The notes under the pieces are model-generated. The model was not told the DNA's origin. It saw nothing but the letters and a program-made list of their open reading frames with translations, and searched no databases. From Fretibacterium sp. OH1220_COT-178 (GTDB lineage Bacteria; Synergistota; Synergistia; Synergistales; Aminobacteriaceae), in NCBI RefSeq assembly GCF_003860125.1, contig NZ_RQYL01000026.1:1-42998 (forward strand): a stretch of 42,998 nt of DNA, given 5' to 3'. The translations under genes were made by a program, and so were the position numbers. Positions 603-6,392 of this stretch are shown here, one piece after another; position 1 is the stretch's first letter, and each line of letters opens with the position of its first letter.

Positions 603-678
<76 letters not shown>

Positions 679-1129: not shown

Positions 1130-1609
1130 ATGACTGGAATGGGAGAGCCTTTTCGCGTATCCGATCTCTTGGATACCTTGATACGACTTGAGGAAAGGGG
1201 CAGCGCCTTCTACGAGGACCTGGCCGCGAGGACAAAATCGGAACGGGCGCGGGCGCTCTTCGAAGAACTCAGCAGAGAGGAACGAGAGCACGAAGCCCTG
1301 TATTCCGCCCTCAAAAAGGAGTTCGGCGATGGCGCTCCTCCGGATTCGGACCGTATCCGTCACCTGGACACACTGATTCGCCAGAGCTTTGCCTTCGAGG
1401 AGTTCAGGCCCATCCTCAAGGACTCCGACAAGGCATGGGAACAGGCCATCGATTTCGCCATACAGCTCGAAAAGAACACCGCGGCCTACGTCCGGGAGAT
1501 CCGCAGCATCCTCCGGACCGAGGCCCCGGAGGTCTTCGAGGCCATTCTGGCCGAGGAGGAACGGCATCTCAGAATGCTGGCGGACTACAAAAACGAGGCT
1601 GGATTCTGA
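1130..1609 (+). CDS. Ferritin-like (rubrerythrin-type) diiron protein
   Basis: This 159-residue, all-helical, Glu-rich protein has the four-helix pattern of the ferritin-like/rubrerythrin superfamily. Putative iron ligands appear as EERGSAFYE in helix 1, EEREHEALY (ExxH) in helix 2, LEKNTAAYVRE in helix 3 and EEERHLRML (ExxH) in helix 4. There is no C-terminal rubredoxin domain, so it resembles the short 'erythrin' relatives that handle peroxide or iron. The start at 1130 has GAGG five bases upstream; a second in-frame ATG at 1139 would also be spaced acceptably from the same purine run. The gene stands alone and converges on the ABC transporter operon across a shared hairpin. The exact reaction is not readable from sequence. 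Confidence 0.75.
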   Translation: MTGMGEPFRVSDLLDTLIRLEERGSAFYEDLAARTKSERARALFEELSREEREHEALYSALKKEFGDGAPPDSDRIRHLDTLIRQSFAFEEFRPILKDSDKAWEQAIDFAIQLEKNTAAYVREIRSILRTEAPEVFEAILAEEERHLRMLADYKNEAGF

Positions 1610-1705: not shown

Positions 1706-2467
1706 TCAGCGGCGCAGGACCTTGGACAGAAAATCTGCGGTACGCGGCTCCCGCGGCCGGTCGAAGACCTCCTCCGGCGTCCCCTCCTCGGCGATGCTTC
1801 CCCGGTCCATGAAGAACACACGGTCGGCAAACTCCCGGGCAAACCCCATCTCGTGCGTGACCAACAGCATCGTCATGCCGTCCCCGGCGAGCTCCTTCAT
1901 CACCGCGAGCACCTCGCCGATCATCTCGGGATCGAGCGCGGAGGTCGGCTCGTCGAAAAGCAGCACCTCCGGACTCATCGCGAGGGCCCGGGCGATGGCG
2001 ACCCGTTGCTTCTGTCCTCCGGAAAGCCTTTCAGGCCATTCGTCCACCTTGTCCTCCAGCCCCACGCGCCGCAGCAGTTTCTCCGCCAGGGCGTCCGCCT
2101 CCTTGGGACCGCACAACCCCAACGAGACCGGAGCCAGCGTGATGTTGCGCCTAACGCTCAGGTGAGGAAAGAGGTTGAAGTGCTGAAAGACCATGCCCAT
2201 GTGCCGACGGACCCGGTCGATATTGCAGCCGGGAGCGGTGATATCCTCTCCCCGAAAGAGAATGGTGCCGGAGCTCGGCTCCTCCATCCGGTTCAGGCAG
2301 CGCAGAAAGGTGCTCTTGCCCGAGCCCGAGGGACCGATGATCGCCAATTTCTCCCCTCTCTCGATCGTGGTTTCGATGCCGTTCAGGACGGATACCCCGC
2401 CGAACTCCTTGCTCAGGCCGCGAACCTCGATCAGAGGCCTGCCGCCCCCAGCCGCACGCTCCCCCAT
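1706..2467 (-). CDS. Polar amino-acid ABC transporter, ATP-binding protein
   Basis: The 253-residue product is the cytoplasmic ATPase of a PAAT-family uptake system (GlnQ/HisP type). It has Walker [10 protein letters not shown] at 45-53, Q-loop Gln 95 in FQHFNLFPH, signature LSGGQKQR at 148-155, Walker B VLLFDEP at 168-174 and switch His 205. Length is normal for the family. The open frame continues far upstream, but ATG 2467 is chosen because GGAGG lies 8 nt before it and it follows the permease stop by two bases, so the two are translationally linked. It is the last gene of a binding protein-permease-ATPase operon ending at the hairpin 1609-1648. The substrate cannot be read from this subunit. 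Confidence 0.95.
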
Positions 2468-2469
2468 CC

Positions 2470-3312
2470 TCAGGACCTCCGGCTGCGATGCAGCCACTTT
2501 TCCAGCCTGCGGACCAGCTCCGTCAGAACCAGCACCATCGCCAGATAGATCAGGGCCACCATCACCAATGGCTGGGAATGCTCCAGCGTCAGCGCTTGGA
2601 TGTTCTGTCCGGCGCGCGTCAGATCGTCGATGCCGATATAGCCGGCCACCGAGGTCTCCTTCAGCAACGTGATGAACTCGTTGAACAGCATGGGCACGAC
2701 GTTCCGGAACGCCTGGGGCAGGACGATGCGCAGCATCGTGACCCGATAGGACAGCCCAAGGGAACGTCCGGCCTCCATCTGCCCGGGATCGACGGCCTCG
2801 ATCCCGCCGCGGAAGATCTCCGCGACGTAGGCCCCGGAGTTCAGGCCGAAAGCCAGGATGGCTATGTGGAGGGTGTTGACGTCGCGTGCCGTGGCGAATA
2901 TGGAGAAGTTCCAGATCAGAAGCTGCACCATCACCGGCGTCCCACGCAGAACGGTGATGTAGAGGTTGGCGAGGGCGTTCAGAAGGCCGATCCGCGCCCC
3001 CCCTCGATAGGCTACTCGGATCACGCTGATGACCAGACCGAGAACGAGACCGATCAGGGTGGCAAACAGCGTCATGCTCAGGGTGGCCTTCAAGCCGTCG
3101 AGCAACATCCTGTAGCGCCCGTCCAGGATGAAATTCTGATGGAACTTCTCCCCGAAATCCCTCCAGGCACCGGGAGAGAAGAAACCGCTGTGGATCAGGA
3201 TCGCGACGAGGAGCACCCCGCAAACGAGAAGGCTGGCGTCACCCCGTCCGGGCCGGCTCCATCCACGGGACACCCCCCTGTCGCCGAAGTCGAGGGGGGA
3301 GGGGGACGTCAT
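2470..3312 (-). CDS. Polar amino-acid ABC transporter, permease
   Basis: This 280-residue inner-membrane protein has an Arg/Gly-rich cytoplasmic N-terminus, a first hydrophobic segment near residues 28-45 and then the His/Glu/Gln/Arg/opine-type permease core. The EAA loop that docks on the ATPase is visible as [22 protein letters not shown]. The motif [15 protein letters not shown] before it is typical of the GlnP/HisM group. The frame is open for 34 more codons, overlapping the binding-protein gene, but ATG 3312 has a strong GGGGGAGGGGGG element just upstream and avoids the overlap. ATG 3342 is the alternative. A single permease gene suggests a homodimeric channel. Confidence 0.93.
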
Positions 3313-3346
3313 CGGAACGCGCCCCCCTCCCCCAGATTCCATTCCG

Positions 3347-4177
3347 TCATTTTCCCGCGGGGGCCTCGTAGTCGTCCGCCCGGACCACGGCCACCTGCCT
3401 GGCTCCCTCGACATAGTTGGCCGAGAAATCCATGTTCTTCTTCCGATCCTCGGTGACGGTGATCCCGGCGCAGATCATGTCGACCTTGCCGGAGGACACG
3501 GCCATGGGGAGCGCGTCGAAGTTCATGTTCTCGATCACCAATTCCTTGTCCAGACGCTTGGCGATCCCTGCCGCCATCTCGATGTCGATGCCGATGTAAC
3601 CGCTGCCCACCTTGAGCTCGTAGGGAGCGAAGCCGGCCTCCGTCCCCATGATCAATTTGCCGCCTCTGGCGCCCTTGTTCAGGTCGATGTCCTCCGGTTT
3701 GACGGAAAAATCGCCGTTGTACTTGTCGATGATGGCCGCCAGGGTTCCGTCCGCCTTCATCGCGGCAAGGGCTTCATCGACCCGCTCACGAAGTTCCGTG
3801 TTCCCCTTCCTGAAGCCGATCGCGTAGCTCTCCTCGGAGAGCGACTCATGCATCAGGGCCAGGTTTTCCACACTTCGCAGGAATCTTTGGGCCGGGGCCT
3901 CGTCCATGATCACCGCCCGAACCTTCCCCTGACGCAGTGCCGCAATTGCGTCCACGTACTTCTCATAGGTGGTCAGCAGCGCCTTGCTGTCCTCGCCCAG
4001 CAGGTCCTCGGCCAGAAAATGACCGATCGTACCGCGCTGCGCCGCCAGCTTCTGATCCTTCAGCTGATCGATGCCCGTCAACTTTTCCGCACCCTGGGAA
4101 GCGCCGGCCAAAAGCACCAGCACCGCCCACAAGGTGAACACGGCAAAACCTCCAAAAGCCCTCCCCGATTTTCTCAT
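3347..4177 (-). CDS. Circularly permuted periplasmic amino-acid-binding protein (SBP_bac_3 type)
   Basis: The 276-residue product has a signal peptide (about residues 1-30) and then the two halves of a type-II amino-acid-binding protein in reversed order. Residues 33-155 match what is normally the C-terminal part: LTGIDQLKDQKLAAQRGT, VRAVIMDEAPA, YAIGFRKGNTEL and the final helix ADGTLAAIIDKYNG. After a linker (156-172), residues 173-270 match the normal N-terminal part: GKLIMGTEAGFAPYE, YIGIDIEMA, GKVDMICAGITVTEDRKK and DFSANYVEGARQVAV. Ligand-contact positions of the family (Arg in TEDR, Asp in MDEAP) are kept, so the fold is probably functional. ATG 4177 is chosen for GGAAGGGTGG five bases upstream; ATG 4198 is the longer alternative. 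It heads the transporter operon. Likely ligand: a polar amino acid. Confidence 0.9.
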   Translation of the reverse strand: MRKSGRAFGGFAVFTLWAVLVLLAGASQGAEKLTGIDQLKDQKLAAQRGTIGHFLAEDLLGEDSKALLTTYEKYVDAIAALRQGKVRAVIMDEAPAQRFLRSVENLALMHESLSEESYAIGFRKGNTELRERVDEALAAMKADGTLAAIIDKYNGDFSVKPEDIDLNKGARGGKLIMGTEAGFAPYELKVGSGYIGIDIEMAAGIAKRLDKELVIENMNFDALPMAVSSGKVDMICAGITVTEDRKKNMDFSANYVEGARQVAVVRADDYEAPAGK

Positions 4178-4262
4178 GGCAACCACCCTTCCCTGCATCG
4201 GTATCGGTCCCGAAACCAGGCGACAAGATCCTCACGCAACCCCGTCGCGCTTATGAGTTTGC

Positions 4263-4271
4263 ATTATAGCA
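4263..4271 (-). promoter_or_regulatory. Extended -10 promoter of the amino-acid ABC operon
   Basis: The minus strand reads TGCTATAAT, a perfect TGnTATAAT extended -10 element, 86 nt upstream of the binding-protein start. No good -35 box is seen, as is common for extended -10 promoters. Confidence 0.6.
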
Positions 4272-4346: not shown

Positions 4347-6392
4347 TCACGGCCTTTTTCGGCGGCGGCCTCCGGCTCTCGGACTCGGCATGCGGCCCCT
4401 TCCCGTTTCCTCCGGCGCCCCGCCGCGGGACTCCGCAATCAGGTCGCGCAACGTCGCGGCGCGTTCGAAATCCAGCCGCTCGACGGCCTCCCACATCGCG
4501 CGCTCCAGCTCCGCCACCGACAGTTTCGGGGCCTCGTCGGGCTTTCGGTCCCCCCGTCCGGGGCCGTCCAGCGAGTAGGCCTCCAGCAGCTCCTGCGGGA
4601 GAAGGCTCTTGACCTCCTTCTCGATGTTGCGCGGGACGATGCCGTGCTTCTCGTTGAAATCCATCTGCTTCCGGCGGCGTCGTTCCGTCTCCTCCACGGC
4701 CCTGCGGATGCTCTCCGTCTCCGCATCGGCATAGAGGTAGACCGTGCTGTCCACGTTTCGGGCCGCGCGCCCCATGATCTGGATCAGGGACCGGTAGGAC
4801 CGCAGATACCCCTCGCGGTCCGCATCGAGGATCGCGACCATCGTCACCTCGGGCAGGTCCATGCCCTCGCGCAGCAGATTGATGCCCACCAGCACCTGGA
4901 CGTCCCCTTTGCGCAGATCGCGGATCAGCTCCGCGCGCTCGAAGGTGTTCAGCTCCGAGTGAATGTAGCGCACCTTGAACTTGAGTTCCCTCAGGTAGTC
5001 GGCCAAGTCCTCGGACGAGCGCTTCGTCAGGGTCAGCACCAGTGCGCGCTCTCCCTTTTCCGCCACCGTGCGCAGGCGCTCGATCAGGTCGTCGATCTGC
5101 CCCTTGGCGGGCAGAACCACCACCTCCGGGTCCGGAATGCCGGTGGGGCGGATCACCTGTTCCACGACCTGCGTGGAGTGCTCCAGCTCATAATCGCCCG
5201 GCGTGGCGGAGACGAAGACCGCCGTATGCAGGTGTCCCTCGAACTCGTGCCACTCCAGCGGACGGTTGTCCAGGCAGGAGGGCAGACGGAACCCGTTGTC
5301 CACCAAGACCGTCTTGCGGGCGCGGTCGCCGTTGTACATGCCCCGCACCTGGGGCAGCGTGATGTGGGATTCGTCCACGATCATCAGAAAATCCCGGGGG
5401 AAGAAGTCGACCAGCGTGCCGGGCGGATCGCCGATGTTCCTGCCGTCGAGGTAGACGGAGTAGTTCTCGATTCCCGAGCAGTACCCCACCTCGGAGAGCA
5501 TCTCCAGGTCGTAGCGCGTGCGCATCCGGATGCGCTGGGCCTCCAGGAACTTGCCCTCGTTGGCGAAGCGCTCCTCCATCCGGGCCAGCTCCGCCTCGAT
5601 CAAGGGCTTGGAGCGCTCGATGGCGTCCGTCTGGGTGACGTAGTGCTGGGCGGGGAAGATGGACGCCTCCGGCATCCGCTCCACCAGCTTGCCCGTCAGC
5701 GGGTTCACCAGGTCCACCCGCTCGATCTCGTCGTCGAAGAAGGTGACGCGGATGCAGTTCTCGTCGTAGGCGGGAAAGATCTCGATGGTGTCGCCCCGGA
5801 CGCGGAACTTCCCGGCCTCCAGCACCGTATCGTTGCGCTCGTAGTAGTTCTCCATCAGGTGCTGCAGAAAGGCGCGGTGCTCCCAGCGGTCGCCCTCCGC
5901 GAAGGAGAAGATGGCGTTTTCGTAGTTCTCGCGCTTGCCCAGGCCATAGATGCAGGAGACGCTGGCCACGACCAGGACGTCGCGCCGCTCGATCAGAGCC
6001 TTGGTCGCGGCCAGCCGAAGCCGTTCGATGCGTTCGTTGACGGAGGCATCCTTCTCGATGTAGGTGTCGCTGGACGGGATATAGGCCTCCGGCTGATAGT
6101 AGTCGTAGTAGCTGACGAAGTAGTGGACGGCGTTTTCCGGGAAGAACATCTTGAACTCGCTGTAGAGCTGGGCCGCGAGCGTCTTGTTGTGCGCCAGAAC
6201 CAGGGTGGGCCGGTTGACCGCCGCCACGACGTTGGCCATGGTGAAGGTCTTGCCGCTCCCCGTGACGCCCATCAGCGTCTGGAAGCGGTCCCCGCGGTTC
6301 AGCCCCTTCGTCAGGGCTTCGACGGCCTCCGGCTGGTCGCCCGATGCGGGCCAGTCCGAGTGCAGGACGAAATCTTTACGGATCAATGTCAT
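4347..6392 (-). CDS. uvrB: UvrABC excision nuclease subunit B
   Basis: UvrB is the damage-verifying helicase-like subunit of nucleotide excision repair. The 681-residue product has Walker A GVTGSGKT at 42-49, the Tyr-rich beta-hairpin region SYYDYYQPEAYIPSSDTYIEKD at about 94-115, the DESH motif (VDESHITLPQ), helicase motifs ending QIMGRAARN, and a C-terminal UVR domain (LERAMWEAVERLDFERAATLRD) that contacts UvrA/UvrC. Length and motifs are typical and intact. ATG 6392 follows GGGAGG by only two bases; a TTG two codons later would be better spaced and cannot be excluded. No uvrA or uvrC is in the window. The gene is separate from ftsH by about 100 bp. Confidence 0.98.
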   Translation of the reverse strand: MTLIRKDFVLHSDWPASGDQPEAVEALTKGLNRGDRFQTLMGVTGSGKTFTMANVVAAVNRPTLVLAHNKTLAAQLYSEFKMFFPENAVHYFVSYYDYYQPEAYIPSSDTYIEKDASVNERIERLRLAATKALIERRDVLVVASVSCIYGLGKRENYENAIFSFAEGDRWEHRAFLQHLMENYYERNDTVLEAGKFRVRGDTIEIFPAYDENCIRVTFFDDEIERVDLVNPLTGKLVERMPEASIFPAQHYVTQTDAIERSKPLIEAELARMEERFANEGKFLEAQRIRMRTRYDLEMLSEVGYCSGIENYSVYLDGRNIGDPPGTLVDFFPRDFLMIVDESHITLPQVRGMYNGDRARKTVLVDNGFRLPSCLDNRPLEWHEFEGHLHTAVFVSATPGDYELEHSTQVVEQVIRPTGIPDPEVVVLPAKGQIDDLIERLRTVAEKGERALVLTLTKRSSEDLADYLRELKFKVRYIHSELNTFERAELIRDLRKGDVQVLVGINLLREGMDLPEVTMVAILDADREGYLRSYRSLIQIMGRAARNVDSTVYLYADAETESIRRAVEETERRRRKQMDFNEKHGIVPRNIEKEVKSLLPQELLEAYSLDGPGRGDRKPDEAPKLSVAELERAMWEAVERLDFERAATLRDLIAESRGGAPEETGRGRMPSPRAGGRRRKRP

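Follow-up and report, generated by a model that had tools for sequence, protein, structure and literature searches.

Within a family of substrate-binding proteins (SBPs), chain order is usually taken as fixed, and it is used for classification. The canonical amino-acid receptors of the SBP_bac_3 family, such as GlnH, ArtJ, AncQR (4zv1) and the SBDs of GlnPQ, run from lobe 1 through lobe 2 to the lobe 1 C-terminal helices. In GlnPQ of Lactococcus lactis, tandem SBDs are fused to the permease (PMC8025302). Circular-permutation relationships have been described among glycine-betaine-binding proteins, 2B4L included (PMC2395249), which gives the permutation of type II binding proteins a precedent in another family. 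Crystal structures of permuted halves of the ribose-binding protein also show that parts of a binding-protein fold can withstand permutation (PMC9815098). A search for natural permutation in amino-acid receptors, with partial coverage of the literature, returned no report of permuted SBP_bac_3 proteins.

We analyzed a window of 42,998 nucleotides, positions 1 to 42,998 of contig NZ_RQYL01000026.1 from Fretibacterium sp. OH1220_COT-178. By its sequence, one protein encoded there is a permuted SBP_bac_3 homologue and not a canonical member of the family.

Segment order and predicted fold

The SBP gene lies in an ORF (3347-4198) that encodes 283 residues from an upstream ATG and 276 residues from the ATG at 4177. 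The latter is preceded by GGAAGG and is the likely start. The original prediction placed the gene correctly at 3347-4177 and left its strand, the minus strand, unstated. Read from the N-terminus, the chain comprises a signal peptide, segment B, a 17-residue linker and segment A, followed by the stop codon; it is therefore B-linker-A, versus A-B in canonical receptors (Table 1).

Table 1. Positions of the SBP gene, its segments and the associated operon features in the window
Feature	Position	Strand	Remarks
Permuted SBP_bac_3 substrate-binding protein gene	3347..4177	-	276 aa from ATG at 4177
Signal peptide region	4088..4177	-	About the first 30 residues, from the translation; cleavage site not computed
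Segment B, placed first: lobe 2, hinge strand 2, canonical C-terminal helices	3713..4081	-	Contains the MDEAP Asp
Linker from old C-terminus to old N-terminus	3662..3712	-	17 residues; PEDID..NKGA.G motif kept in relatives
Segment A, placed last: N-terminal portion of lobe 1, up to and including hinge strand 1	3371..3661	-	Contains FAPYE and the TEDR Arg
PAAT/GlnP-like permease	2470..3342 (start 3342 or 3312)	-	PF00528, 3.6e-22; NCBIfam GlnP-like, under the equivalog cut-off
GlnQ/EhuA-like ATPase	1706..2467	-	PF00005, 4.8e-40
Extended -10-like sequence TGCTATAAT	4263..4271	-	Some 85 bases 5' of the ATG; read directly

In the PDB and Pfam searches, for which query numbering starts at 4198 (the 283-residue form), AncQR residues 10-107 match query residues 180-276 (i-E = 3e-18), and AncQR residues 104-232 match query residues 35-162 (i-E = 1.3e-13). 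Membership of SBP_bac_3 is supported by PF00497 (E = 3.1e-32; 111.5 bits versus a curated cut-off of 26.4), positions 1-94 of which match query residues 182-276. When the halves are re-joined in canonical order, a single AncQR match is obtained, with query residues 7-235 aligned on chain residues 10-232 (129.6 bits, E = 1.7e-36). As expected of a circular permutant, the two halves correspond to a single parent, and one cyclic shift makes them co-linear with it again; the canonical succession of lobe 1, lobe 2 and lobe 1 C-terminal helices is absent. These E-values exclude a chance match, as does the recurrence of this order across dozens of further genomes. The original prediction had described two halves in reversed order after a normal signal peptide, with residues 33-155 as the canonical second part and 173-270 as the first; in the same numbering we place these parts at 33-155 and 173-269. 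The two crossed AncQR pieces, which become one on re-permuting, and the PF00497 match bear this out, and the proposed linker length and the motifs FAPYE, TEDR and MDEAP are all present in the translation. Its placement of the new ends at the hinge also holds: these ends adjoin the first hinge strand, and the short linker joins the old ends. As a structural effect, lobe 1 would become continuous in sequence, with the conserved linker joining its former ends, and both chain ends would move to the hinge-1/lobe-2 side. A hidden lobe-1 exon upstream was considered and rejected; the neighbor on that side, in the same orientation, is a UvrB-like ORF (4347-6392, assigned from sequence).

AlphaFold, run with 58 permuted sequences, produces one compact two-lobed model (pLDDT 95.3, pTM 0.89) in which both hinge strands are present (E86-95 and E228-238) and the linker is ordered. 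The two halves complete one fold in this model, which is the outcome on which the original prediction had staked its structural check. The top VIA-align match is OpuAC from Bacillus subtilis (2b4l; Z = 14.1, 217 residues, 4.2 Å), and unpermuted amino-acid receptors rank below it, with about 177 residues and Z of about 11. With Z values of 11 to 14, the model conforms to the two-lobed type II binding-protein fold, although this is a prediction and not a solved structure. No solved structure of a permuted SBP_bac_3 protein was seen; the PDB matches listed cover permuted proteins in two pieces or in one part. The original prediction raised altered opening dynamics or altered docking on the permease as a possible consequence of permutation at the hinge. 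Because both hinge strands are still predicted to be intact, ligand-driven lobe closure may be little changed by the permutation.

The operon and its putative receptor

The permease and ATPase genes lie on the same strand, within a few bases 3' of the SBP gene. Both are directly downstream and matched by PF00528 and PF00005, which agrees with the linkage to an intact permease and ATPase in the original prediction. A GlnP-like permease adjoining a GlnQ-like ATPase identifies the locus as a PAAT (polar amino acid) ABC importer operon. No NCBIfam equivalog cut-off is reached, and the substrate is accordingly not assigned. Upstream of the SBP gene, a two-hexamer sigma-70 promoter scan found nothing and did not pick up the extended -10-like sequence either, and no riboswitch or other RNA element was found at Rfam gathering thresholds. 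Elsewhere, the window carries a transposase fragment with an integrase core at the start of the contig (40-444, plus strand; rve, PF00665), a tRNA-Ala (GGC) gene (603-678, minus strand) and a rubrerythrin-family gene (1130-1609, plus strand) that is convergent with the ABC operon.

In glutamine-binding protein, an Arg residue contacts the α-carboxylate of the ligand and an Asp residue its α-amino group. Among the permuted Synergistota sequences, the TEDR Arg is kept in all 48 readable rows and the MDEAP Asp in 49 of 49. The window protein thus has the conserved Arg and Asp of an amino-acid receptor, with residue roles taken from glutamine-binding protein. The mature part yields dN/dS ratios of 0.11 to 0.19 against four orthologues at 76-80% identity, indicating purifying selection; these figures are approximate, with dS near 1 or above. 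Because the orthologues are under purifying selection and retain both the ligand Arg and the ligand Asp, we infer that the gene very probably encodes the working receptor of the adjacent importer, amino-acid binding and transport being without measurement. Together with the permease and ATPase linkage, these data favor the original proposal of a probable working receptor. The exported protein would hold a polar amino acid (of the arginine, lysine or glutamine type) between its lobes, with the Arg presumably on the α-carboxylate and the Asp on the α-amino group. The lobes would then close on the ligand, and the protein would dock on the permease dimer.

An assembly artefact, in which a chimeric contig wrongly joined the halves of two SBP genes, can be virtually ruled out. 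The window does belong to a draft assembly, which comprises 105 contigs, and many of its relatives are MAGs. Nevertheless, the same order and junction recur in dozens of independently assembled species. They are likewise present in Ructibacterium gallinarum DSM 107454 (L061), a named strain, and, within the same family, on a single contig of 2.73 Mb; the number of independent genomes, together with the large single contigs, refutes the artefact in practice. It is also extremely unlikely that the gene is a decaying or non-complementary fusion of halves from two SBPs with no working binding site. The confident, compact two-lobed model, the purifying selection with retention of both ligand residues, and the long conservation of order and operon all weigh against such a fusion, even if the tandem SBP arrays of relatives could yield mixed fragments. 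A sensor or scavenger role, as opposed to that of receptor for the adjoining permease, appears very improbable. SBP-like domains act as sensors in other proteins, and the adjacent permease could in principle work with either of two canonical SBP_bac_3 proteins from the same genome. However, the permuted protein has a signal peptide and no attached signalling domain, the permease and ATPase are immediately linked both here and in relatives, and relatives fuse permuted SBPs directly to permeases. We hold with high confidence that the protein is a periplasmic, naturally circularly permuted SBP_bac_3 receptor of the operon's GlnPQ-like polar-amino-acid ABC importer, in the absence of binding or transport data.

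Distribution and history of the permuted orders

All close homologues examined, from many Fretibacterium and Synergistaceae MAGs, share the order of the window protein. With a permuted profile (best E < 1e-40), about 53 of the 188 Synergistota genomes are scored as having permuted members; among 391 Clostridia genomes sampled, the profile finds a match in 69 at E up to 1e-40. The Synergistota count is a tally of best profile scores, and segment order was verified for fetched loci only. The homologue search proposed in the original prediction thus finds the same segment order in dozens of other genomes, and the permutation is neither private nor recent.

Among the fetched loci, two permuted orders are distinguished: type I, that of the window protein, is B1-B2-A, and type II is B2-A-B1, with the cut placed before hinge strand 2. 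Counting the canonical A-B1-B2 as well, this one family, with homologues 60-75% identical per segment, is found in related gut bacteria in each of the three possible cyclic orders. The type II proteins (e.g., L182:2670-3554, plus strand, and also L213-L229) are lipoproteins in which the C-terminal hinge strand and helices come right after the signal peptide. Some are encoded on large single contigs (L219, 2.97 Mb; L222, 3.84 Mb; L218, 4.90 Mb). The AlphaFold model for type II scores a pLDDT of 88.6 and a pTM of 0.80, and its A-B1 part matches canonical receptors at 1.9-2.7 Å for many entries, as permutation predicts. Where enough flanking sequence is available, the permease and then the ATPase follow type I single ORFs in 32 of 58 cases, and both lie downstream of type II genes in 11 of 13; some loci overlap.

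Several other arrangements were observed in passing. Five loci (L077, L079, L080, L081 and L083) contain tandem clusters of divergent SBP-like proteins of 280-310 residues in permuted order, with motifs such as GVILSEPYY and no adjoining permease noted. A Ruminococcus MAG (L062:5911-8947, plus strand) has a permuted SBP gene followed directly by two mutually close canonical SBP genes. Finally, L171:5186-7042 (minus strand) encodes a 619-residue lipoprotein that combines an N-terminal part resembling, by eye, sugar-type binding proteins with a permuted SBP_bac_3 unit.

In further relatives, 1-8 or 12 type I units are fused N-terminally to the permease. Single-unit fusions are found at L014, L024 and L026, and the largest predicted protein of this kind (L114:1349-11104, plus strand) spans 3,252 residues, with 12 PF00497 stretches and BPD_transp_1. 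In the complete array genes examined, the signal peptide directly precedes a B segment. A 910-residue chain (L230:3653-6382, plus strand) unites permuted SBP, permease and ATPase, amounting to a whole half-importer. If the prediction is true, a transporter dimer with 12-unit arrays would carry as many as 24 receptors, and the long arrays pose the question of why one transporter should have so many.

For phylogenetic analysis, the segments were re-assembled into canonical order before the tree was built. The best tree has 10 changes of segment order, and well-supported branches force at least five type I and at least two type II changes; these counts do not tell gain from loss, nor whether the direction was from permuted to canonical or the reverse. 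A single clade of all type I proteins is rejected (AU p = 6e-6), as is one of type II (p = 0.015). Since the permuted proteins do not form one clade, the order appears to have changed repeatedly, and the two different cut sites require at least two events. It is unlikely that one ancient permutation underlies all permuted members and that the apparent recurrence stems from errors in the tree, from gene conversion between halves or from some lines having reverted to the canonical order. The Synergistota single proteins may be joined with the permease-fused arrays (p = 0.17) or with L061, L190 and L202 (p = 0.18) as one clade without rejection, and the ambiguity between gain and loss also leaves room for a single event. 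Against it stand the rejected clades, the two cut sites and L176, for which grouping with the Synergistota singles is rejected at p = 1e-29. The nearest canonical relative of L176 is L137 for each of A, B1 and B2, and gene conversion at this locus is disfavored for that reason. We consider it probable that SBP_bac_3 has been permuted repeatedly in nature at two hinge-adjacent cuts, with three cyclic orders serving amino-acid ABC importers and one of these orders present in permease-fused arrays of up to 12 units.

The window's own clade, that of the Synergistota singles, groups with the Clostridial permuted genes L203, L205 and L206 at 97/90, which implies that its permutation is older than the Synergistota clade. 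Transfer between lineages may have occurred. The sequence comparisons support a permuted order that the window protein has inherited, one that is common to Clostridia, older and widely shared. We infer an origin by tandem duplication with subsequent loss of the outer parts, which would give either permuted order; both cuts adjoin a hinge strand, a place at which the fold can probably accommodate a break in the chain. No intermediates (A-B-A, or canonical-order arrays on a permease) occur among the fetched loci, an absence that means little, since the loci were chosen with the permuted profile.

Comparison with known systems

OpuAC, the glycine-betaine receptor of Bacillus subtilis, is the best structural match and covers nearly the whole chain. 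Nevertheless, it belongs to another family, has another ligand and shares only 13% identity with the window protein in the structure alignment, and the Pfam search, taken to E = 0.1, gives no match to the OpuAC family. A similar order of the chain in SBP_bac_3 would have to be counted as a separate event. The canonical SBP_bac_3 receptors share the family assignment over both segments, the ligand Arg and Asp and the operon type. The window protein differs from them in its B-A order, in the extra linker and in the position of its ends, which lie beside the first hinge strand and not on lobe 1. Because profiles match the permuted proteins in two pieces, annotation may be misled.

More interesting than the single gene is the broader picture of recurrent permutation, covering all cyclic orders, and of permuted arrays. 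Natural and closely matched permutants make it possible to test for effects of chain connectivity on folding, closure of the lobes and docking. The fused relatives resemble GlnPQ of Lactococcus lactis in carrying SBP_bac_3 domains on a PAAT permease, the GlnQ ATPase being a separate protein. GlnPQ has two such domains in canonical order, whereas the fused relatives have 1 to 12, all permuted, and the SBP of the window is a separate protein. The ribose-binding protein halves are laboratory constructs of another fold class; the SBP_bac_3 permutation, in contrast, is natural, widespread and recurrent.
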